Source: a virus
Strand: one strand, 5' to 3'
Virus record (IMG/VR): IMGVR_UViG_3300030118_003134
Location: 1-24,591 of that record
DNA: 24,591 nucleotides
Below the pieces are notes generated by a model. The model saw only the letters and a program-made list of their open reading frames with translations. It was not told where the DNA came from and made no database searches. This document shows, piece after piece, positions 5,080 to 23,891 of this stretch; within the stretch, counting starts at the first letter, position 1; each line of letters opens with the position of its first letter. Position numbers and translations under genes: made by a program.

Positions 5080-5213
5080 TGGCACGAAAAGTAAAAGTAA
5101 ATGTATATAAATCAAAAAGTAGAAAACGTAAAGGTGTACACTCAAAAACTAAAATGAGTAAAGTAAAGCAAAGTAAAAATTACAAAAAAAGATATAGAGG
5201 TCAAGGTAGATAA
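5079..5213 (+). CDS. 44-residue highly basic protein
   Basis: Its start shares the stop of the holin-like gene (TAATG). The product, MARKVKVNVYKSKSRKRKG... ending KKRYRGQGR, has roughly 20 Lys/Arg in 44 residues and the segment GVHSKTKMSKVKQSKNYKKR. It has no hydrophobic stretch and probably binds nucleic acid or another polyanion. Short basic proteins with this pattern (GVHSKTK...SKNYKK.Y.GQG) are, from memory, common in marine phage genomes near lysis genes; no function is known to me. The tight coupling on both sides (the next gene starts on its stop) makes it a real gene despite its length. Confidence 0.72.
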   Translation: MARKVKVNVYKSKSRKRKGVHSKTKMSKVKQSKNYKKRYRGQGR

Positions 5214-5347
5214 TGGAAACAATAAAACATATATTAGGATTTTGTGGAGAATCACATATAAACATATTTACAGTTATATTATTAATAGCATTAGTAAAGT
5301 TTGTGTTTGATATGTTTTCTTTCACAAAATATAAATTAAAAAAATAA
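5213..5347 (+). CDS. 44-residue single-pass membrane protein
   Basis: It starts on the stop of the basic protein (TAATG). The product METIKHILGFCGESHIN... has one membrane helix at about residues 17-36 (NIFTVILLIALVKFVF) and a basic C-terminus (KYKLKK). The N-terminal motif LGFCGESHIN, with a single Cys, looks conserved in similar phage proteins I recall. Placed at the end of the lysis cassette, it could be a second holin or an antiholin; this is inference from size and position. Confidence 0.68.
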   Translation: METIKHILGFCGESHINIFTVILLIALVKFVFDMFSFTKYKLKK

Positions 5348-5510
5348 TTATATATTTGTCTTGCTTATAGCAAAACTTGTGCAACCTAATAAAGTTGGAA
5401 GGCACTTGGATCAGGTATTTTGATTATTTTCTTTTCTTGGTAAGGCTTTTCTTTTCTTTCTTTTTGTTTACTTTTTCTTTCTTTTCTTTAATTTTAAATA
5501 TATTTGTGAT
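5348..5510 (+). other. 163-base noncoding stretch, pyrimidine-rich, with a hairpin
   Basis: No ORF is credible here. The left part has a -7-like box TATATTTG (5351-5358) and a stem made of GTGCAAC and GTTG...CAC (about 5381-5407, with a five-base bulge). The right part, about 5424-5492, is almost pure T and C on the + strand (repeats of TTTTCTTTTCTT), the opposite of the A-rich coding strand around it. It could be a small RNA, a replication or packaging site, or a leader for the next gene. I cannot tell which. Confidence 0.5.
5499..5506 (+). promoter_or_regulatory. Possible -7 box (TATATTTG) four bases before an ATG
   Basis: TATATTTG matches the Bacteroidota -7 consensus and ends four bases before the ATG at 5511. 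Transcription starting there would give a leaderless message. No TTTG lies 19-21 bases upstream because that stretch is all T and C, so the promoter is incomplete by consensus. Confidence 0.4.
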
Positions 5511-5738
5511 ATGATACAATATGTTATAGAAAAAATACTAGGCTATACTTCAATATCTTTAAGAGACAAAATAGATAGACTTCTTGAAATGGATGCTACT
5601 ATATATTGTAATTTAGGAATAGATTCTACAAAGACAGAAAGACAAGAAGCAAAAAAACAAAGCAGAATAATATACAGAGCTATAAAGCAATTAGATGAAA
5701 GACTAGGTAATAGTTTACTACAAGCTATGGACAGATGA
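5511..5738 (+). CDS. Hypothetical 75-residue helical protein
   Basis: This small, mostly helical protein (ILGYTSISLRDKIDRLLEMD; GIDSTKTERQEAKKQSRIIY) has no membrane segment or known motif. It follows a TATATTTG box by four bases and overlaps the NinG-like gene as ATGA, so the two form one small operon that ends at the terminator at 6173-6204. I do not recognise a family. Its neighbour suggests a part in DNA metabolism, but that is only context. Confidence 0.65.
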   Translation: MIQYVIEKILGYTSISLRDKIDRLLEMDATIYCNLGIDSTKTERQEAKKQSRIIYRAIKQLDERLGNSLLQAMDR

Positions 5739-6139
5739 GAAAAATATCTCGTAAAGGTCTTATAAAAAAACTCGATACTATATTCTCAGAATACATAAGA
5801 AAAAAAAATGCAGATAAAAAAGGTTATGTAACTTGCATCACTTCCGGTAAAAAATATCACTATAGCGAAGTAGATGCAGGACATTTTATATCTCGTAAAG
5901 AAATGAGTACAAGGTGGCACGAGGACAATGTATGGCCACAGAGTAGGTATGATAATAGATATCGATTTGGTATGCAGTATGTCTATAGTCTTGCATTAGA
6001 AAAAAAGAAACAAGGCCTCCCTAAACATCTATATAACGAATCAAAAAAAACAATAAAGTATTCTATAAGTGATCTTAAAGAGATGGTAGAAAAATATAAA
6101 AAATTGTTAGAGATAGAGAATAAAAGATTATCTTTGTAA
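5735..6139 (+). CDS. ninG: NinG/Rap-like recombination protein lacking the zinc cysteines
   Basis: This protein has 134 residues. It matches the phage lambda NinG (Rap) pattern: an N-terminal LDTIFSEYIRKKNADKKGYVTC, the core DAGHFISRKEMSTRW (residues 47-61), then NVWPQSRYDNRYRFG. NinG proteins act on recombination intermediates and usually bind zinc through C-x2-C and QC-x2-CN. Here the first pair is Cys34 and Ser37, and the second is Ser70 and Asp73, so at least three of the four Cys are missing while GHFISR is kept. It may be a metal-free subfamily or a diverged nuclease. It is the last gene before a strong terminator. Confidence 0.75.
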   Translation: MRKISRKGLIKKLDTIFSEYIRKKNADKKGYVTCITSGKKYHYSEVDAGHFISRKEMSTRWHEDNVWPQSRYDNRYRFGMQYVYSLALEKKKQGLPKHLYNESKKTIKYSISDLKEMVEKYKKLLEIENKRLSL

Positions 6140-6142
6140 GTT

Positions 6143-6160
6143 CTTACCACCTTCGGTAAG
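6143..6160 (+). other. Hairpin just upstream of the terminator
   Basis: CTTACC (6143-6148) and GGTAAG (6155-6160) pair as a 6-bp stem around ACCTTC, three bases after the ninG-like stop. It may protect the 3' end of the message or assist the terminator that follows. Confidence 0.6.
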
Positions 6161-6172
6161 CGTTTTGTTTTT

Positions 6173-6204
6173 AGGGGAGGATTTATTTTCTCCCCTTTTT
6201 TTTT
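6173..6204 (+). terminator. Rho-independent terminator
   Basis: AGGGGAG (6173-6179) pairs with CTCCCCT (6190-6196) around a 10-base loop, and is followed by nine T from 6196 to 6204. This is the GC-richest stem in an AT-rich area and lies 33 bases past the last gene. It probably ends the late/lysis transcription coming from upstream and insulates the replication block. Confidence 0.9.
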
Positions 6205-6214
6205 GGTATTATGA

Positions 6215-6246
6215 TTTGTTTTATCCACATTTTTTAATTAATTTAG
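6215..6246 (+). promoter_or_regulatory. Early promoter (TTTG-N20-TAATTTAG) containing a DnaA box
   Basis: TTTG at 6215-6218, 20 bases, then TAATTTAG at 6239-6246 fit the Bacteroidota -33/-7 promoter (TTTG, ~19-21, TAnnTTTG with one mismatch). It sits just after the terminator and 23 bases before the first gene of the replication block. Between the two boxes, TTATCCACA (6221-6229) is a perfect bacterial DnaA box, and the next ~20 bases are almost all A/T. The site could be a promoter controlled by DnaA, an origin, or both. Confidence 0.55.
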
Positions 6247-6269
6247 ATTCTCATTTAAAAACAAAACTT

Positions 6270-6515
6270 ATGAATATAAACAAAGAAACACAAGATACAT
6301 TAGAAATAAAAGAGCAGTTAGCTTTTATACAAAACCATTGGAATAAAACAGGAGAATGGTTATTGACTAACAATCTAAATAAAGTACAACTTAAAACCTT
6401 AATTATAATTTTAGAACAATTTAAAAAAGGATTTGTAAGTAAAGAGGTTATGGTACAGACTATAGATTCTCTTATTGATGTAAAAATTAATGATAGTAAG
6501 TATGGCAGCTCCTAA
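6270..6515 (+). CDS. Hypothetical 81-residue protein, first gene of the replication block
   Basis: The ATG at 6270 follows AAAACAAAACTT and gives 81 residues. The longer open frame back to 6165 would run through the terminator and promoter, so I reject it. The product is helical (LEIKEQLAFIQNHWNKTGEW; QLKTLIIILEQFKKG) and soluble, with no motif I know. It overlaps the next gene by 14 bases. As the first early gene it could act on the host or on regulation, but nothing in the sequence shows this. Confidence 0.62.
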   Translation: MNINKETQDTLEIKEQLAFIQNHWNKTGEWLLTNNLNKVQLKTLIIILEQFKKGFVSKEVMVQTIDSLIDVKINDSKYGSS

Positions 6516-6687
6516 TATAGACGAACTAAACAACAGAATAAAACTTTTAGGTAAGAAAGTAAATACTTTAATAAATTTATTCAACGAACTTAAAAGTGAA
6601 AACAAAGACTTGAAAATTAAAGTCAGATTAGTTATGAAAAAAAACAAAATTACTAACGAAAGACAATTAGAAGAACATTTAAAATAA
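6502..6687 (+). CDS. Hypothetical 61-residue coiled-coil protein
   Basis: I start at ATG 6502 (MAAPNIDELN); an ATG at 6490 would add four residues. Nearly the whole protein is a basic coiled coil (LLGKKVNTLINLFNELKSEN), and the end, KNKITNERQLEEHLK, is a second short helix. No family is recognised. Overlap with the previous gene and a 4-base gap to the next support a real operon member. Confidence 0.58.
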   Translation: MAAPNIDELNNRIKLLGKKVNTLINLFNELKSENKDLKIKVRLVMKKNKITNERQLEEHLK

Positions 6688-6691
6688 AACA

Positions 6692-7129
6692 ATGAAAGAA
6701 ACAGGTACAATCACAAAAATAAATCAAACAGGACAATATCCTACAAAAGATAGGGAAACAAATAAACCTATCATTATGAAAATATATACAATAGATTTTA
6801 AGCACATACAAAATACAACATATTATAATCCTCACGAATTGAAAGTAAAAGAAGGAGATTACGTAGAATTTGAATATAATAAAGCTGATGCAAAAGTTTC
6901 AGCAATAAAAAAAATTGTACAACCTATGCACGGAAACTACAAACCACAAACAACTACAAACAAAGAACCTTACGTTACTGCTGACCAACAAAGACAAAAT
7001 GAAATCAATTTTGGTAATAGATTAAATGTAGTTGCAACATTATATTCTGGTCAGGGCGATAAAATTTCCCTTGACGAATTATATGAAAAAGCAGTATATT
7101 TATTTAACAAACAAAAACCTTTCAATTAA
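6692..7129 (+). CDS. Hypothetical protein, possible OB-fold, next to SSB
   Basis: This 145-residue protein is preceded by AAAACA. Residues 1-75 are beta-rich (ETGTITKINQTG; KIYTIDFKHI; VKEGDYVEFEYNKADAKVSA), a pattern compatible with an OB-fold. The middle is a low-complexity linker rich in Thr, Asn and Gln, and the end is helical (ISLDELYEKAVYLFNK). It lies one base before a gene for a DUF3127 SSB-like protein, so a DNA-binding or replication accessory role is reasonable. I do not recognise the family. Confidence 0.6.
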   Translation: MKETGTITKINQTGQYPTKDRETNKPIIMKIYTIDFKHIQNTTYYNPHELKVKEGDYVEFEYNKADAKVSAIKKIVQPMHGNYKPQTTTNKEPYVTADQQRQNEINFGNRLNVVATLYSGQGDKISLDELYEKAVYLFNKQKPFN

Positions 7130-7130
7130 T

Positions 7131-7466
7131 ATGGAACTAATAGGAATTATAAAAGAAATAGAAGAAACAAAAAAATTTGGTAGTAATGATTTCAAGGTCA
7201 GAAATATACTGCTTGAAACAAAAGAGAAATATCCACAAAAAATACAAATAGCTTTTCAACAAAAAAACTGTGAATTACTAAATGATTTTTCTGTAGGAGA
7301 TGAAGCAAAAGTAAACATTAATATAAGAGGCAGGGAGTGGACTAATAAAGAAGGTGTTACCAAATATATCAATACAATAGTGGGATGGAGAATACAGCAC
7401 GACCAAGTTGTTACTTTACAAGATCAACAACCTGATAGAGTAGAACCTGACCCATTACCTTTCTAA
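7131..7466 (+). CDS. Single-stranded-DNA-binding-like protein, DUF3127 family
   Basis: The ATG at 7131, one base after the previous stop, gives 111 residues; an open frame back to 7032 lies inside the previous gene and is not used. The order MELIGIIKEIEETKKFG, RNILLETKEKYPQKIQIAF, GDEAKVNINIRGREW, INTIVGWRI is that of the Bacteroidota DUF3127 family, thought to be an OB-fold. The protein ends DRVEPDPLPF, like the acidic tip ending in PF by which bacterial SSBs recruit partners. It most likely coats phage single-stranded DNA during replication and recombination. Confidence 0.8.
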   Translation: MELIGIIKEIEETKKFGSNDFKVRNILLETKEKYPQKIQIAFQQKNCELLNDFSVGDEAKVNINIRGREWTNKEGVTKYINTIVGWRIQHDQVVTLQDQQPDRVEPDPLPF

Positions 7467-7669
7467 TGCCTAAAACACCAGAGTATTATAATGGAAAGAA
7501 TGGTTATACAGCTCGTGAAGTTGTAGAAAACTTTGACCTAAATTATAATCTTGGAACTGCTTGTACTTATATACTTAGAGCATATAGAAAACACAAAACA
7601 CCTAATAGATGTTTAGAGAAAGCAATACATCATTTACAATTTGAATTAGATAAATTACAGAAAGAATAA
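7466..7669 (+). CDS. DUF3310-like small protein
   Basis: A protein of 67 residues whose start codon shares a base with the previous stop. The pattern EYYNGKNGYTAREVVENFDL, then NLGTACTYILRAYRKHK and CLEKAIHHLQFELDKL, matches the phage DUF3310 layout (a Tyr-rich start, L.Y..G....YI.R...K, KA..HL...L). DUF3310 proteins are common in phage replication regions; their role is not settled. It lies between the SSB-like gene and the ATPase, joined to both by single-base overlaps. Confidence 0.7.
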   Translation: MPKTPEYYNGKNGYTAREVVENFDLNYNLGTACTYILRAYRKHKTPNRCLEKAIHHLQFELDKLQKE

Positions 7670-8580
7670 TGCTAATAAACTTTGGAGACGAATTAGATAA
7701 GGTAGATAAAATAAGACAAGGCCTACTTAAAGAAGCTCCAAAGTTAGGGATAGATGAGATAGACAATGTAATTAGATTCAAAAGAAATGTAACTTGCTTT
7801 GCAGGACACGCAAACGTAGGTAAAACATCTATTATACTTTATTTTATGTTACTCTTTGCTATGAAACATAAAACTAAGTTCTTGGTATTTAGTTCCGAAA
7901 ATGAACCTTATGGCCTTATCAGAAAACTTTTAGAGTTCAAATCTTACAAACCTATCAACAAAATTTCATCGGAAGAATTAGAAAAAGATTCAGAATTTAT
8001 ATTTAATCATTTTAAATTTATTGACTGCGAAAAGAACTATGATTACTTAGATTTATTATCTTTATGTGAAGTTGTATATCCTCAATATAAGTTTGACTGC
8101 TTAATTGTTGATCCGATAAACAGCTTGAGAAAAAATAAAGGTATGATGAAATATAGTAATGCTTACGAGTATCTATATGAATGTATGACAGATTTTAGAA
8201 TATTTGTCAAACAATACAATGTAGGTCTATGGTTAATTATGCACTCAGTTACTGAAGCATTTAGAAAACGTTATGCAACAAATCACGAGTTTGCTGGACA
8301 TCCCTTACCTCTTGCTATGAGTGATGTAGAAGGAGGTAATGTTTTTGGAAACAGAACAGATGACTTTTATACAATACACAGACTTACACAGCACGAATCA
8401 AGATGGATATATACAGAGCTGCACTCAAAAAAAATTAAAGATCACGATACAGGAACAAAACCAACACCTTTCGATTCTCCCTTATTACTACAAAGTATAC
8501 CCAACAATGTAGGTTATAAGTTAGGAGACAAAGACATAATAAATAAATCAATAATAGAACAACTTAATTTTCCATTTTGA
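7669..8580 (+). CDS. RecA/DnaB-type ATPase, probable replicative helicase
   Basis: This protein has 303 residues. Walker A is GHANVGKT (46-53) and Walker B is FDCLIVDP with Asp148. SSENEP at 75-80 carries the Glu typical of DnaB-like helicases, and WLIMHS (188-193) has a sensor His. This is the single RecA-like core without a DnaB N-terminal domain, as in AAA_25/RepA-type phage ATPases. It likely unwinds DNA at the fork or loads the host helicase; a recombinase is the alternative. The C-terminus ends LNFPF, similar to the tip of the SSB-like protein. It overlaps the sigma-like gene by four bases. Confidence 0.82.
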   Translation: MLINFGDELDKVDKIRQGLLKEAPKLGIDEIDNVIRFKRNVTCFAGHANVGKTSIILYFMLLFAMKHKTKFLVFSSENEPYGLIRKLLEFKSYKPINKISSEELEKDSEFIFNHFKFIDCEKNYDYLDLLSLCEVVYPQYKFDCLIVDPINSLRKNKGMMKYSNAYEYLYECMTDFRIFVKQYNVGLWLIMHSVTEAFRKRYATNHEFAGHPLPLAMSDVEGGNVFGNRTDDFYTIHRLTQHESRWIYTELHSKKIKDHDTGTKPTPFDSPLLLQSIPNNVGYKLGDKDIINKSIIEQLNFPF

Positions 8581-9056
8581 AAACACCTGTAGAAAAGGCA
8601 TACGATAGACACGAGAAATGGTTAGAAATAACTAAATCTTTCGGTGGCCTTAAAGATACAGAGGTAGAAGATATAGTACAAGAAATGTATGTTTTATTGA
8701 TTCGTAATACACAAAAAGGTATAGATTTTAGTTATGGTAATGATATAAATTATTATTACTGTTTTAGAATCCTTAGAGGTCTTTATGTCGATTTGATTAG
8801 AAAGAAAATGAAATACACGCTTGTTGAACTTAATGGCCTTGAAATTACTCAACAAGATTCTTGTAACTATGTTGAGGTATATGAAAAAATACAAAATGCA
8901 CTTAAACAAATATATTGGTATGACAGAAAGGTATATGAGATAGTCGATGAGCAAGGGGTAAGTATAAGTGAGCTGTCAAGAAAAACAGATATATCTTACT
9001 ATTCACTTTACAATACATTCAACAAAGTTAAATTAAAACTCAAACAATTATTATGA
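8577..9056 (+). CDS. Sigma-70-like transcription factor (ECF type)
   Basis: This protein has 159 residues, typical of an ECF sigma factor with regions 2 and 4 only. Region 2 is at ~28-80: DTEVEDIVQEMYVLLIRN, then CFRILRGLYVDLIRKKM. Region 4 is at ~116-157: RKVYEIVDEQGVSISELSRK, then a recognition helix ISYYSLYNTFNKVKLKLK. The start is TTG, in a TTGA overlap with the ATPase stop, because no ATG occurs in frame before residue ~37. It should bind host core RNA polymerase and send it to phage promoters. The repeated AAAAT-N13-CGATATAT element before the late genes is the obvious candidate target, which is inference. Confidence 0.82.
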   Translation: MKTPVEKAYDRHEKWLEITKSFGGLKDTEVEDIVQEMYVLLIRNTQKGIDFSYGNDINYYYCFRILRGLYVDLIRKKMKYTLVELNGLEITQQDSCNYVEVYEKIQNALKQIYWYDRKVYEIVDEQGVSISELSRKTDISYYSLYNTFNKVKLKLKQLL

Positions 9057-9229
9057 GATTAGGAGACAAATTAGAATATATAATAAACATCATTACATTT
9101 GGCAAAGGTAAAGCAATAGCTACTTGGATAGCAAATAAATTAGGGTATGATGACTGTGGATGTGATGAGAGAAAAGAATACTTAAACAACATATCAAGAA
9201 ATGGCGACAAAATGGAAGAAACTAAATAA
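9053..9229 (+). CDS. 58-residue protein with DCGCD motif
   Basis: It starts in an ATGA overlap with the sigma-like gene. MRLGDKLEYIINIITFGKGK is followed by ATWIANKLGYDDCGCDERKE and LNNIS. The middle may be an amphipathic or membrane-associated helix. The DCGCDxRxxxLN end is, from memory, shared with many small phage proteins of unknown role and could bind a metal through its paired Cys. It overlaps the next gene by 29 bases in another frame. Confidence 0.68.
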   Translation: MRLGDKLEYIINIITFGKGKAIATWIANKLGYDDCGCDERKEYLNNISRNGDKMEETK

Positions 9230-9434
9230 AAAAGAATACGACAGATGGACTGTATTCAAGTCTGTAAATAGTAGCAGTATTAACAAAGAGGAACAAGTAT
9301 TAATAGCAAAAATACATTCTAAGTATTTCGTACACGATTATTATATACCTTGCTCTTGTACACCTCGACAATGGAATCAATGGATTAGTGATATAAATAC
9401 TATTTACGACAATGGGTATAGAAACGATAAATAA
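9201..9434 (+). CDS. Hypothetical 77-residue protein with PCSC motif
   Basis: The product has a basic start (MATKWKKLNKKEYDRW) and a core YYIPCSCTPRQWNQWISDIN. The CSC pair and the tryptophans suggest a small folded domain, perhaps metal-binding. It overlaps its neighbours on both sides (29 and 23 bases). It sits directly before a PD-(D/E)XK nuclease gene and may work with it. No family name is known to me. Confidence 0.62.
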   Translation: MATKWKKLNKKEYDRWTVFKSVNSSSINKEEQVLIAKIHSKYFVHDYYIPCSCTPRQWNQWISDINTIYDNGYRNDK

Positions 9435-9825
9435 GTTTGAAAAAACTGTAGTATCATTCCTCAATGAGTTTGAAGGATGGGATTTGAAATGGAGTGAAGG
9501 AAAGTACGAACATTATGACGCATCTGGTCTTACGCCAAAAGGCCACAAATGCGTAATGGAAATGAAATTTAGAAACAAATACTACAAAGACAAACTACTT
9601 GAAAAGTATAAGTATGATAAACTTATGGAAATGGATTCTGAAATCGTGAAACTTTATTTTGTTAGCGATCCAAAGGGAACATACTTGTATTGGATAAACT
9701 ATTTAGAAATGCCAAAAGTAAAAGAATTGTATTGTCCTGATACGACCTTATGGACAAAAAAGAAGTTGTTAAAAAAAGTGTATTTACTTACAGAAGATAT
9801 GGCAAGTATTGTACATAAATCATAG
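9412..9825 (+). CDS. PD-(D/E)XK nuclease-like protein
   Basis: A protein of 137 residues. The catalytic pattern is visible: Asp36 in HYDASGLTPKG, then Glu50-x-Lys52 in VMEMKFRNKYY, and a following helix LLEKYKYDKLMEMD, as in PD-(D/E)XK nucleases. The next strands (VKLYFVSDPKGTYLYWI) complete the fold. It is a single small domain, like the resolvase- or VRR-type nucleases of phages, and may process recombination intermediates or degrade host DNA. It overlaps the preceding gene by 23 bases and is followed by a short noncoding gap. Confidence 0.68.
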   Translation: MGIETINKFEKTVVSFLNEFEGWDLKWSEGKYEHYDASGLTPKGHKCVMEMKFRNKYYKDKLLEKYKYDKLMEMDSEIVKLYFVSDPKGTYLYWINYLEMPKVKELYCPDTTLWTKKKLLKKVYLLTEDMASIVHKS

Positions 9826-9837
9826 TTATATTCAAAT

Positions 9838-9860
9838 GTGAATTATTTTCACTATATTGC
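9838..9860 (+). promoter_or_regulatory. Inverted repeat and -7-like box before 9865
   Basis: GTGAA (9838-9842) and TTCAC (9848-9852) form an inverted repeat around TTATT, immediately followed by TATATTGC (9853-9860), which resembles TAnnTTTG and ends four bases before the ATG at 9865. It could be an operator and promoter for an internal early transcript. There is no T tract after the repeat, so it is not a terminator. Confidence 0.4.
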
Positions 9861-9864
9861 AAGA

Positions 9865-10005
9865 ATGAAAAAACAAAGACAATATCGAAGCAATCAAGGT
9901 AGAAACCCAAAGAAAGAAGAAGTTACCTACCAAACCTTAAAGTTTGCATTAATACTATTTACAATATCTATTGGTAGCTATGTAATTTTAAAACTATGGA
10001 TATAA
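9865..10005 (+). CDS. 46-residue single-pass membrane protein
   Basis: The product has a basic N-terminus (MKKQRQYRSNQGRNPKKEE) and one membrane helix at about residues 25-45 (LKFALILFTISIGSYVILKL). Positive-inside topology puts the basic part in the cytoplasm. It follows a possible promoter and inverted repeat, and overlaps the next gene by 10 bases. Such small early membrane proteins can act in exclusion or host takeover, but no homolog is known to me. Confidence 0.58.
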   Translation: MKKQRQYRSNQGRNPKKEEVTYQTLKFALILFTISIGSYVILKLWI

Positions 10006-10247
10006 AAGAAAAACAAAAGTTTGAATTAGCTTTCAACTATATTGGTAATGCTATGACAAAAGCATTTGAATCAGCAGAACCACAAAGAAAAAAAGAAATA
10101 GGAAACTTTATAAAATGTTTGAATGTAATGTATATGTACACAAACAAACTAGAATCAAATATAATAATCAAAAAACAAGAGAATGATACAACTTTTAGAC
10201 GGAAACGAATACAACAAGAAAGACTTGTTAGAAAAAATGGTGGATGA
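9996..10247 (+). CDS. Hypothetical 83-residue helical protein
   Basis: It begins inside the previous gene. The product is helical (KQKFELAFNYIGNAMTKAFE) with a basic C-terminus (TTFRRKRIQQERLVRKNGG). No family is recognised. Its last 65 bases overlap the start of the exonuclease gene in another frame, so the basic tail is coded by the same DNA as the exonuclease N-terminus. Confidence 0.55.
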   Translation: MDIKEKQKFELAFNYIGNAMTKAFESAEPQRKKEIGNFIKCLNVMYMYTNKLESNIIIKKQENDTTFRRKRIQQERLVRKNGG

Positions 10248-10956
10248 TAATTTTTATTATGGAGAACTAAACAAACTTGCTCTAAGTAGCTCAACTATAA
10301 AACTTTTAATGGATAGTCCTAAAACATATAAATATATATTAGAATACGGAAATCCTGAATCACAACCTTTGAGAGATGGAAAACTTGTTCATTTAAGTAT
10401 ATTAGAGCCACATAAATTCCAAGAATTAATATTCGTAAATGTATCTTCCAAAAATACAAAAGCATATAAAGAAGCTAGAACAAAATACGGAGAAGTATAT
10501 ACAAGAGCTGAGAAAGAATATGCTGAAAGAATTACTGATCATTTTTTAAGAAACGAGTATGCTCTAAAATGTATAACAAACTGTGAATTTGAGATTCCAA
10601 ATATAGGAATGATAGGTGGCTACCCTTTTAGATGTAAAGCAGATATAGTTTCTGAAAAAGGTATCATTGATATAAAAACAACAGCTAGTAAAATTAAAAA
10701 TTGGGAATATGATATAGATAAATATTCTTATGATGTTCAATTATATATATACTGTTCTATTTTTAATATTCCACCATCAGCATTTAAGTTTCTAGTTATA
10801 AATAAAAATAATTTAGATATAGGATATAGAGATGGCAACCAAAGAATTTTTGACAATGGAAAACAAAAAACTTATTTAGCATTAAAAGAATTTGAAAAAT
10901 ATTTTATAAATGGAGAAGATTTAGACAATAGAATAATAAAAATAGGAAAAGACTAA
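10183..10956 (+). CDS. RecE/exonuclease VIII-like PD-(D/E)XK exonuclease
   Basis: This protein has 257 residues. It matches the C-terminal nuclease domain of RecE (DUF3799/PDDEXK_1): ALSSSTIKLLMDSPKTYKY near the start, His70 in DGKLVHLSILEP, Asp154 in FRCKADIV, Asp163-x-Lys165 in IIDIKTT, and QLYIYCSIF, with Gln186 and Tyr190. It would resect double-stranded ends for recombination. An annealing partner was not identified; the SSB-like protein may serve. I keep the ATG at 10183 because the first 19 residues look like part of the domain; ATG 10240 is the alternative. Confidence 0.82.
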   Translation: MIQLLDGNEYNKKDLLEKMVDDNFYYGELNKLALSSSTIKLLMDSPKTYKYILEYGNPESQPLRDGKLVHLSILEPHKFQELIFVNVSSKNTKAYKEARTKYGEVYTRAEKEYAERITDHFLRNEYALKCITNCEFEIPNIGMIGGYPFRCKADIVSEKGIIDIKTTASKIKNWEYDIDKYSYDVQLYIYCSIFNIPPSAFKFLVINKNNLDIGYRDGNQRIFDNGKQKTYLALKEFEKYFINGEDLDNRIIKIGKD

Positions 10957-10971
10957 TTTTAATAAAACAAT

Positions 10972-11718
10972 ATGAAAACAAAAATACTCAACAAAGGAAC
11001 ATACACACCTGATTTTAAAATTAAAAATTTAAAAAAAGCAAAAGTAAATAGAGATTTATTTCTCAAACATTCAGAAAACTTTGATCAGAAATTAAATAAA
11101 TATGGATGGCTTTTGCCAATAACAATTTCAGCAAGTGGATTAATTTTAGAAGGTCAGCATAGAGTTGAATCTGCAAAAAGAATGAAACAAAAAACTATTC
11201 CTGCATACATAGTTAATTGGTTAAATGATAAAAACGAATTAGAAGTTTTAAATACAATAATAAGTTTAAATAATTCTAATAGAGGTTGGAATACAATAAA
11301 CTATTTAAAATCATTTAAGGAACATAATAAAGATTATAAGTTAGTTTATGAAGCTATAATTAAAAATAAAGATACAATAACAGCAGGTAATATGATACAT
11401 ATATATTTTGGAAAGACTGTAAATGTTTTTAAACAAGGCCAAAGTAAAATATTAAATTTAGAATTTGCAAAATATTTGTGTAAACATATATCTAATTTGG
11501 TAACTAAATATGGTAAAAGAAAAATACAAGCATACCAGATAAGAGAAATGATTATAGTAGGAAATGTGAAAGCAAAAGGGAATATTCAAATTATGGATTA
11601 TTTGTTTAGAGAATATGATAAAATGGCTCAAGGAAATCACCCTGCATTAACATCTATAGCAGAATTTAGACCTTACATAGAAAGAGAATTAAATTCTTAT
11701 TTATCGCTTACAAAATGA
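10972..11718 (+). CDS. ParB-like nuclease-domain protein
   Basis: This protein has 248 residues and an AATAAAACAAT context before the ATG. Residues ~22-82 carry the ParB N-terminal fold: NRDLFLKHSENFDQKLNKYG, WLLPITISASGLILEGQHR (GQHR at 61-64, the ParB nucleotide-binding box), and IPAYIV. The rest is helical and basic, with no clear HTH. Phage proteins with this domain beside a DNA methyltransferase are common; ParB-like domains can bind CTP or have nuclease activity. It overlaps the methyltransferase gene by four bases (ATGA), so the two probably act together. Confidence 0.75.
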   Translation: MKTKILNKGTYTPDFKIKNLKKAKVNRDLFLKHSENFDQKLNKYGWLLPITISASGLILEGQHRVESAKRMKQKTIPAYIVNWLNDKNELEVLNTIISLNNSNRGWNTINYLKSFKEHNKDYKLVYEAIIKNKDTITAGNMIHIYFGKTVNVFKQGQSKILNLEFAKYLCKHISNLVTKYGKRKIQAYQIREMIIVGNVKAKGNIQIMDYLFREYDKMAQGNHPALTSIAEFRPYIERELNSYLSLTK

Positions 11719-12347
11719 TAAATATTTATAATCAAGACTGTATGGAAGCTATGCAAAAAATGTCAAATAATCAATTTGACTTAGCTATTGTTGATCCTCC
11801 ATATGGAGGTGGACAAAACTACAATTTTAGATATACTGAGAATGAAACAAAAAAAGTTTATGATAATGTAAGGCCAAGTGATTTTTATTTTAAAGAACTT
11901 TTTAGAGTTTCTAAAAATCAAATTGTTTGGGGGGGTAATTATTTTACTAATAATTTGCCAGAAAGTAGAGGATGGATATGTTGGGATAAAAAACAACCTT
12001 TAAATGGTACACAGTTTTCGAACTTTGAATTGGCTTGGACTTCTTTTGATAAAGTTGCAAAAATGGTAGTTTGTGCTAATGCTGGTTTCAATCACGGAGA
12101 CAAACGTATTTACAAAGAAAGTACAATACACCCAACTCAAAAACCAATTAGCTTGTATTATTGGCTGCTTAAAAATTATGCAAAAAAAGGCCAAAAAATA
12201 CTTGATACTCATTTAGGTTCAGGCAGTATAGCTGTAGCCTGTAATCAATTAGGTTACGAACTTACAGGTTATGAAATAGATAAACATTATTTTGAAGAGG
12301 CTAAGAAAAGAATACAAAAACATAAAAGACAATTAAGATTATTATGA
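11715..12347 (+). CDS. DNA methyltransferase, N6-adenine/N4-cytosine type (beta order)
   Basis: A protein of 210 residues. The catalytic motif IV is DPPY (27-30) in DLAIVDPPYGGG, HPTQKP follows at 139-144, and the S-adenosylmethionine site is LDTHLGSGS (163-171). Catalytic motif before cofactor motif is the beta-class order (PF01555), and DPPY favours adenine-N6. No restriction enzyme is seen, so it is probably an orphan enzyme that protects phage DNA or marks replication. The target specificity is unknown. It is coupled by ATGA overlaps to the ParB-like gene before it and the DnaA-like gene after it. Confidence 0.88.
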   Translation: MINIYNQDCMEAMQKMSNNQFDLAIVDPPYGGGQNYNFRYTENETKKVYDNVRPSDFYFKELFRVSKNQIVWGGNYFTNNLPESRGWICWDKKQPLNGTQFSNFELAWTSFDKVAKMVVCANAGFNHGDKRIYKESTIHPTQKPISLYYWLLKNYAKKGQKILDTHLGSGSIAVACNQLGYELTGYEIDKHYFEEAKKRIQKHKRQLRLL

Positions 12348-12760
12348 ATAAACAATTAAGAATAGCAAACAGAATAAACAAAATAGCAAAGGTAGATGTA
12401 TTTGAGAACTCAAGGAAGTCTGATGTAGTAGAAGCAAGATCGCTACTTGTATTCATACTATACAAATATGAAAAGATGAAGTTACAAGAAATAGCAAACT
12501 TCTTTCGCAAATATGGAAAAACTTCAGACCACTCATCAGTATTACACGCACTCAATATGTTTGAGATATACTTAACTACAAATAAAACTTTAGGAAAGTG
12601 GCTGACAATGCTTACAAAGAATATTAAAGATGTAAACAATGAGGCCAAGATAGAATTTATAAAACTTAAAGTAAATTATTTAAGTGATGAAAGCATCAAG
12701 ACAATGGTAGAGCTGGTAGATACAATGGAACAAAAAGAATTTGAAACAATCGAAAATTAA
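12344..12760 (+). CDS. DnaA domain IV-like DNA-binding protein without ATPase
   Basis: A protein of 138 residues. Residues ~24-70 match the DnaA C-terminal HTH (Bac_DnaA_C): RKSDVVEARSLLVFILYKY, KLQEIANFFRKYGKT, then SDHSSVLHAL, which fits the DnaA signature (DH-T/S-VLHA). There is no AAA+ domain. It may bind DnaA boxes as an initiator adaptor or as a competitor of host DnaA, and a perfect box lies at 6221-6229. It is the last gene of the replication block; its final bases overlap the first late-promoter element. Confidence 0.75.
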   Translation: MNKQLRIANRINKIAKVDVFENSRKSDVVEARSLLVFILYKYEKMKLQEIANFFRKYGKTSDHSSVLHALNMFEIYLTTNKTLGKWLTMLTKNIKDVNNEAKIEFIKLKVNYLSDESIKTMVELVDTMEQKEFETIEN

Positions 12761-12778
12761 TTAAATTTTACGATATAT
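12752..12778 (+). promoter_or_regulatory. Phage late promoter candidate A (before terminase)
   Basis: GAAAAT (12752-12757), 13 bases, then CGATATAT (12771-12778). The same pair with the same spacing recurs at 14758, 22038 and 23861. Here the ATG lies 45 bases on, so the message would have a leader of about 40 bases. That leader contains a run of ATTA repeats (about 12792-12806). Confidence 0.65.
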
Positions 12779-12823
12779 AGATATAAACAGAATTAATTAA
12801 TTAATGTTTTATTAATTTTTACT

Positions 12824-14757: not shown

Positions 14758-14784
14758 AAAAATCCACTTTAGATTTCGATATAT
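14758..14784 (+). promoter_or_regulatory. Phage late promoter candidate B (before the tail operon)
   Basis: AAAAAT (14758-14763), 13 bases, CGATATAT (14777-14784), then four bases and the ATG at 14789. It starts directly after the terminator's T tract, which is where a new promoter is needed. Confidence 0.72.
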
Positions 14785-14788
14785 ATAT

Positions 14789-15439
14789 ATGAGAGTTAAA
14801 ATAACTGTACCAAATGATTTGTCAGAAATCAAATTATGGCAGTATCAGAAGTTTGTCAAGATACAAGAGGATAATACAGACGAAAACTTTCTAGCTTCTA
14901 AAATGATAGAAATATTTTGTGGTATAAGTCTCAAAGAGGCCTACACATTAAAAGCAAAAGACGTTCATAGAATTACAGGAATACTTGCAGATATGTTTGA
15001 ACAAAAGCCACATATCAAAACAAGGTTTGTACTCAATGGTGTGGAATATGGTTTCATACCAAACCTAGATGATATGACTTTGGGAGAATATGTTGATCTT
15101 GATACTTACTTAGGTAAATGGCAACAAGTAGAAAAAGCTATGGCAGTTCTTTATAGGCCAATTATAAACACTTATAAAAACAAATATACCATAGAGGAGT
15201 ATAAAGCAGAAGGTCAAGATGTATATAAGGATATGCCAATGGATATTGTACTTGGTAGTATGCTTTTTTTTTATCGTTTAGGAATCGACTTGTCGAGGCT
15301 TATGACAGTTTATTTGGAACAGAACAAGGAGAAGCCCTTACCTCCGTCTCTCAATTTGGGCAGAAATGGGGATGGTATCAATCAATTTTTGCACTCTCTC
15401 AGGGGGATATTAGACGATTTGAGCATATCGTTGAACTAA
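14789..15439 (+). CDS. Tail assembly chaperone, zero-frame product (gpG-like)
   Basis: The ATG at 14789 (MRVKITVPNDLSEIKLWQYQ) follows the late promoter by four bases. A TTG-initiated frame from 14753 would start in the terminator T tract and is rejected. The 216-residue product has the core IEIFCGISLKEAYTLKAKDV, then VEYGFIPNLDDMTLGEYVDL and MDIVLGSMLFFYRLG. This is the layout I associate with tail assembly chaperones of Flavobacteriia phages, which bind the tape measure during tail building. A run of nine T at 15264-15272 allows a shift into the -1 frame to make the longer form; the last ~56 codons of this ORF overlap that extension. Confidence 0.75.
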   Translation: MRVKITVPNDLSEIKLWQYQKFVKIQEDNTDENFLASKMIEIFCGISLKEAYTLKAKDVHRITGILADMFEQKPHIKTRFVLNGVEYGFIPNLDDMTLGEYVDLDTYLGKWQQVEKAMAVLYRPIINTYKNKYTIEEYKAEGQDVYKDMPMDIVLGSMLFFYRLGIDLSRLMTVYLEQNKEKPLPPSLNLGRNGDGINQFLHSLRGILDDLSISLN

Positions 15440-22037: not shown

Positions 22038-22064
22038 CAAAATAGTTAATTATAAACGATATAT
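22038..22064 (+). promoter_or_regulatory. Phage late promoter candidate C (before the protease)
   Basis: CAAAAT (22038-22043), 13 bases, CGATATAT (22057-22064), four bases, ATG at 22069. The element fills the whole 32-base gap after the tape measure stop. Confidence 0.72.
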
Positions 22065-22068
22065 TATT

Positions 22069-23860: not shown

Positions 23861-23887
23861 CAAAATAAATTTTAAAAATCGATATAT
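23861..23887 (+). promoter_or_regulatory. Phage late promoter candidate D (before scaffold/capsid)
   Basis: CAAAAT (23861-23866), 13 bases, CGATATAT (23880-23887), four bases, ATG at 23892. The geometry is identical to sites B and C. Confidence 0.72.
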
Positions 23888-23891
23888 AATT

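Follow-up and report, generated by a model that had tools for sequence, protein, structure and literature searches.

ECF-kind late sigma factors have been documented in few cultured phages, and a literature search on phage ECF sigmas found the phiEco32-type as the only case. Gp36 of phiEco32, the sigma factor of Kuravirus phages, serves some of the middle genes and all late genes together with the host core RNA polymerase (PMC9965538). The contacts of an ECF sigma factor with its -10 element are described for Mtb SigH. Its open complex shows Asn88 wedging the base at -10 and forming hydrogen bonds with it, and Asn92 in contact with the -11 pair; the authors of the structure suggest that position 88 may help to determine -10 specificity (PMC6411747).

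The window analysed here, which is the whole stretch of 24,591 nucleotides from IMG/VR record IMGVR_UViG_3300030118_003134, is a 24.6-kb viral contig of 31% G+C. Its tail and lysis genes are followed by an early block and then by terS, TerL and the structural genes (Table 1). The named TerL proteins nearest to that of the window belong to Flavobacterium psychrophilum phages (48%), which makes a host from the Bacteroidota probable. An 89-kb contig in which host genes were sought carries only phage-like or unassigned proteins, and the host assignment therefore remains one that we infer. Ahead of the early block, the region 5080-5511 holds two TAnnTTTG sequences (at 5351 and 5499) and is a candidate host-read early promoter region; as both sequences are without a clear -35, a host-type TAnnTTTG early promoter is not claimed.

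Table 1. Coordinates, strand and characteristics of the features discussed in the window.
Feature	Position	Strand	Characteristics
Early block	5511-12760		NinG-like nuclease, helicase-like ATPase, sigma, exonuclease, ParB-like protein, methyltransferase, DnaA-C-like HTH protein
Putative ECF-like sigma factor, 159 aa	8577..9056	+	Starts with TTG, in overlap with the stop codon of the preceding helicase-like ATPase gene
Sigma region 2, residues 25-78	8649..8810	+	EDIVQE motif conserved, predicted -10-reading helix; from alignment, profile alignment to solved ECF sigmas, and model
Gly68 codon	8778..8780	+	Aligns with Mtb SigH Asn88; column best tracking the third base of CG[A/T]
Asp72 codon	8790..8792	+	Aligns with Mtb SigH Asn92; D72 goes with G at -11 in the family
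Sigma region 4, residues 98-158	8868..9050	+	Helix-turn-helix nearly invariant (I..YYSLYNT); from alignment and model
Candidate late promoter 1, AAAA-N14-CGATATAT	12753..12782	+	Upstream of terS (ORF 12824) and TerL; predicted start ~12783, leader ~41 nt
Candidate late promoter 2, AAAA-N14-CGATATAT	14759..14788	+	12 nt ahead of ATG 14789; predicted leaderless
Candidate late promoter 3, AAAA-N14-CGATATAT	22039..22068	+	12 nt ahead of ATG 22069, prohead-protease-like gene; predicted leaderless
Candidate late promoter 4, AAAA-N14-CGATATAT	23862..23891	+	12 nt ahead of ATG 23892; predicted leaderless

By its sequence and its predicted fold, the 8577-9056 protein is an ECF-like sigma factor, divergent from every curated subfamily. 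It has the ECF layout, with regions 2 and 4 only, in 159 aa (ECF sigmas usually have about 150-200 aa and are without regions 1 or 3). The NCBIfam SigZ model TIGR02959 aligns with residues 27-159 at E=8e-8, below its curated cut-off. The sigma70-ECF model TIGR02937 gives E=1e-5 and 25 bits for a curated cut-off of 42.9, and it is matched by 28 of 36 family members (best 2e-11). Pfam alone would miss the protein (Sigma70_r2, E=0.03), and the scores of the family profile against single solved ECF sequences are weak. The AlphaFold model (mean pLDDT 84) is composed of two helical domains, at about residues 1-77 and 98-158, with a disordered linker at about 81-95; given a pTM of 0.47, the model does not predict how these domains are placed relative to each other. 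Mobility of the domains is normal for a sigma factor off the polymerase. In a PDB fold search with this model, all ten folds with E<0.001 were ECF sigmas, the best being Mtb SigE, SigL and SigH and E. coli sigmaE. These profiles and folds bear out an earlier sequence-only reading of the window, which had recognised sigma regions 2 and 4 in the protein and had placed its gene in the early block, where it indeed lies. The TTG start proposed in that reading is also seen: the ATPase stop and the sigma start overlap as TTGA, read in ...ccatTTTGAAAAC, and 17 of 17 close relatives that were checked have the TTG in an identical TTTTGAAAAC setting. Such a start may, as suggested in that reading, hold the sigma level down.

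Autoregulation and anti-sigma factors are common among ECF sigmas, not universal. In the window, no late element lies ahead of the sigma gene that would indicate positive autoregulation, and no anti-sigma was recognised. The sigma stop is overlapped (ATGA) by a 58-aa gene at 9053-9229 with a CGCDERK motif, homologs of which are present in 252 contigs, usually near the sigma gene. Its product might be an anti-sigma or a sigma partner.

Full AAAA-N14-CGATATAT sites, which represent the late element described in the sequence-only reading, number exactly four; each of them is on the + strand and located before late genes. CGATATAT itself occurs four times in the window, only on the + strand, for an expected number of 0.41, and four occurrences were never reached in 100 shuffles. 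An AAAA box lies exactly 14 nt before the C of CGATATAT at 4/4 sites. When a matrix made from other phages was applied, the four sites scored 18.6 bits and the next best window site 9.6. From the C of CGATATAT to the A of the ATG, the distance is exactly 12 nt at 14789, 22069 and 23892. With the SigH numbering applied to the element (G-11, base -10, T-9), this distance brings the predicted start onto the A of the ATG, so that the mRNAs would be leaderless at three of the four sites. Among the relatives, the distance to the ATG also peaks at 12 nt (179 sites on the + strand, 0 on the - strand), and a lesser peak at 10 nt (85) results in part from the repeating TATA register. The predicted terS leader (12783-12823) contains a palindrome-like stretch, TTAATTAATTAA, which appears as TTGATTAATCAA / TTGAATAAACAA in relatives and is kept in most of them; it is possibly an operator or an RNA feature.

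The element had been said to fit the general form of ECF promoters. Its bipartite layout agrees with this description, but an "A-rich" -35 as the hallmark of ECF promoters does not stand. Canonical ECF -35 boxes are GGAAC-like, not merely A-rich, and AAAA(T) is thus a family-specific -35.

The association of the element with the sigma gene was followed among relatives of the window phage. Of the non-redundant loci in which TerL is accompanied by more than 5 kb of upstream sequence, 129 of 129 have the sigma gene; these include 26/26 loci fetched by TerL alone. An element without the sigma factor, named earlier as the observation that would speak against the link, was sought in these loci and not found. 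The sites are concentrated around the late genes: 144 are located at most 700 bp ahead of TerL, in 98 kb searched, 141 follow TerL, and only 4 precede the sigma gene in 552 kb of relatives. In the Flavobacterium phage Fpv5, the TerL of which is 48% alike, no sigma match was obtained and the motifs are without strand bias.

Whether sigma-bearing phages carry the element can be answered positively, with the refinement that several forms exist, each with its own sigma type. Four forms were identified, and the AAAA box is present in every one of them: CGATATA characterizes the window clade, CGTTATA most other relatives, TTATATA a third clade and CTATATA a fourth. The spacing of the box is near-fixed across the relatives (N13/14 before CG[A/T]TATA). 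In the third clade, the element appears as GTTTATATATTA; it was tallied as GTTTATATA, and the register given by the 12-nt distance to the ATG and by the AAAA box reads TTATATA. A marked strand bias was observed over 284 loci (+ vs -), with 117 vs 6 for CGATATA, 205 vs 13 for CGTTATA and 60 vs 0 for GTTTATATA. Mixed forms at the orthologous late promoters of one phage occur in 0/118 contigs. All promoters of a phage thus switch together, as is expected from a changed trans-acting reader. An extra CGTTATATAG with an AAAA box is found shortly after the sigma gene in L330 (8793), L383 (3934), L332 (3128) and L400 (2471), which form one lineage; these extra sites are not directly ahead of an ATG.

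Gene trees were compared by the number of form changes that each of them needs. The sigma tree needs fewer changes than 9 of the 12 other gene trees and ties with three, those of the linked genes g9412, g14789 and g15522. The counts (other tree vs sigma tree) are 8 vs 3 for the ATPase, 18 vs 5 for the methyltransferase, 9 vs 5 for the DnaA-like protein and 8 vs 6 for TerL. In 687 pairs of phages with TerL proteins at least 80% alike and different forms, the sigma likeness has a median of 43%. When the sigma factors are at least 65% alike and the TerL proteins less than 50%, the form is shared in 283 of 300 pairs. Prediction of the form from the nearest neighbour was correct in 129/135 cases with sigma vs 124/135 with TerL, a slight gain, so the separation between the two is real but not total. 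The methyltransferase gene (11715-12347), the tree of which is strongly discordant with the motif form, seems to be often swapped. Just ahead of the first late promoter, the DnaA-C-terminal-like HTH protein (12344-12760; PF08299), found in 197 contigs, may be a replication initiator or a second switch factor.

Two residues of region 2 vary with the form of the element. HMMER aligns residues 68 and 72 with the Asn-xxx-Asn/Asp positions of solved ECF sigmas, and on the basis of this motif match they correspond to Asn88 and Asn92 of SigH. The varying base of the element was placed at -10 by the register fixed on the distance to the ATG. In the first data set, on which residue 68 was both noticed and first tested, Gly68 is present in 30/30 CGATATA phages and Ser, Thr, Asn or Ala in 70/70 CGTTATA phages, which makes column 68 the only perfect one of 159. 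Over all data, the pairing of Gly68 with A at -10 (CGATATA, TTATATA and CTATATA) and of any other residue with T holds in 140 of 143 phages, and the second-best sigma column for the -10 A/T reaches 87%. At position 72, Asp is found in nearly all CG forms (G at -11), Asn in TTATATA and Ala, Ser or Gln in CTATATA. The sister phages L228 and L330 have a g14789-type promoter box that is identical except for the -10 base.

One lineage departs from this correspondence. L330, L331 and L400 combine Gly68 with CGTTATA, and in the L330 lineage the sigma residues 59, 60, 64 and 65 differ as well, which indicates that neighbouring residues matter and that Gly68 is not sufficient. The rule that G68 means CGATATA, which these three phages broke in held-out contigs, was consequently given up as a sufficient rule and kept as a strong one. 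In the first held-out contigs, the scorable CGTTATA predictions were right and two CGATATA predictions wrong; in new contigs, obtained after the rule had been stated, nine were right, one wrong and one unscorable. Part of this success reflects shared clades, as the held-out contigs partly share them with the first data. Independent A/T switches on the sigma tree number only four, so the sign test (p=0.125) cannot pass 0.05.

It is very likely, from these sequence comparisons, that the 8577-9056 sigma factor directs the host core RNA polymerase to the four late promoters and opens the late phase. Made from the early block, the factor would bind the host core RNA polymerase, and both would go to the AAAA-N14-CGATATAT promoters before terS/TerL and the structural genes, transcription from which would open the late phase. 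The constant AAAA box at -35 would be the target of region 4, the helix-turn-helix of which is likewise nearly invariant. The -10 element would be recognised by the region 2 helix, through residue 72 for base -11 and residue 68 for base -10. The predicted transcription start lies about 12 nt beyond the C of CGATATAT. We infer core binding, timing, start sites and the dependence of transcription on the sigma factor. Several lines of comparison, for the most part independent of one another, support the link between sigma factor and element, and the earlier proposal of this protein as the candidate reader of the late element gains from both the co-occurrence and the co-variation of form with sigma type. 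By comparison between phages, the ECF features found are the bipartite promoter, the near-rigid spacing and the co-variation of residue 68 with base -10, with exceptions in one lineage.

A different reader of the same promoters was also considered. The late promoter could be served by an ECF sigma of the host or by the host's primary sigma together with a different activator, and the phage sigma would then serve other promoters or only compete with the host sigma. Bacteroidota hosts encode many ECF sigmas, and the element is without the TAnnTTTG form of the host primary sigma, which both suit a host reader. However, the sites of a phage switch form together, the form tracks the phage sigma and not TerL, and the co-varying residue of that sigma aligns with the residue in contact with this base in a solved ECF complex. 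Nor was a further class of conserved sites noticed that the phage sigma could serve, and a host reader is considered improbable. The protein could also have lost its sigma function and act as a sigma-like regulator, for instance a RinA/ArpU-type HTH activator, which would agree with the weak match to solved ECF sigmas and with Pfam missing the protein. Since both sigma domains are present, the EDIVQE motif of region 2 is conserved and the two -10-linked residues are those reading the -10 element in SigH, we regard a non-sigma function as very improbable.

Another early DNA-binding protein of the phage as reader of the element, either the DnaA-C-like HTH protein or the 9412-9825 product, appears less likely still. 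The former has a DNA-binding domain (PF08299, E=3e-8), is widespread (197 contigs) and sits at the early/late junction, and the latter (g9412) ties with sigma in tree changes. Yet 9 form changes are needed on the DnaA-C-like tree for 5 on the sigma tree, the 9412-9825 product has no PHROG match, and the element has an ECF promoter layout in which the co-varying base is the one that an ECF sigma reads. The lowest probability is given to a translation-start or leader feature (an A-rich stretch before the ATG, without Shine-Dalgarno) that is not a promoter. Such a feature would explain the position of three of the four sites exactly 12 nt before an ATG; Bacteroidota are described as having no Shine-Dalgarno sequences and as tuning initiation through the bases near the start (PMC6847099). 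Against it, the element is complete also at the terS site, although the ATG there is about 45 nt downstream, a conserved AAAA box keeps its fixed spacing 13-14 nt further upstream, and the form switches in step with sigma.

The sigma family is large in marine viromes and essentially absent from named phage records. In IMG/VR, at least 591 matching stretches were confirmed. Neither the window sigma nor L027 gave a relative among the 50,697 named phage records; L041 gave one weak partial match, in an unannotated fecal phage record. A pattern search of 84,980 cellular genomes gave 48 pattern matches, none of them a relative. Some contigs of the family carry unusual sigma genes. A second, divergent sigma-like protein is encoded beside the normal sigma in L167 (5045-5650), and a divergent one (927-1589) is the sole sigma-like protein in the short upstream stretch of L139, with Ser68 and CGTTATA sites. 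L148 / L238 (IMGVR_UViG_3300030061_000336, 47,685 bp) has two sigma genes 29.2 kb apart, about one genome length, and would be a concatemer or else two related genomes joined together.

The phage-encoded, ECF-like probable late sigma is abundant, unstudied in the sources searched, and accompanied by a natural record of promoter re-specification. With somewhat better than even confidence, we propose that leaderless late mRNAs are driven by a sigma family not described before and very abundant in marine phages, and that the specificity of this family has been rewritten several times via residues 68 (-10) and 72 (-11), with every late promoter in step. If true, this would constitute a natural record of sigma-promoter co-evolution. 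As hundreds of marine viral contigs carry both the sigma factor and its promoters, specificity could be read from natural variation, and the proposal drawn from the SigH structure, by which position 88 helps to set the -10 base, could be tested directly on this family. It might also be of use in annotating the late promoters of uncultured phages and as a source of small orthogonal sigma-promoter pairs for Bacteroidota.

Compared with cellular sigma factors, the phage family has its best profile matches in the bacterial SigZ and Bacteroidota ECF models (TIGR02959, TIGR02985), but all its scores are far below the curated cut-offs. PHROG 31712, to which no function is assigned, is matched by 24 of 36 family members, which suggests that it contains late sigma factors. 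Mtb SigH shares region 2 and region 4 with the window protein, and its N88 and N92 align with residues 68 and 72 (PMC6411747). In contrast, SigH acts as a cellular stress regulator, its -10 is GTT and its -35 differs as well, and the canonical Asn that it has at the position of residue 68 is replaced in the phage family by Gly, Ser, Thr or Ala, and only rarely kept. Like the window phage, phiEco32 and its phage 7-11 relative encode a small ECF-type sigma among non-structural genes, and gp36 steers the host core to a motif specific to the phage, which lies ahead of late genes and of some middle genes (PMC9965538, PMC7881722, PMC4331800). Their promoters have an extended -10 (TAATGTATA) and no recognisable -35 (PMC5333181, PMC4331800), whereas the window family has a fixed AAAA box 13-14 nt before CG[A/T]TATA. 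The gp36 protein has no significant profile match to the window family (hhalign probability 2%), and the phiEco32-type hosts are Enterobacteria, compared with probable Bacteroidota here. By analogy, the window sigma would work like phiEco32 gp36 but would represent a separate family with a bipartite promoter.
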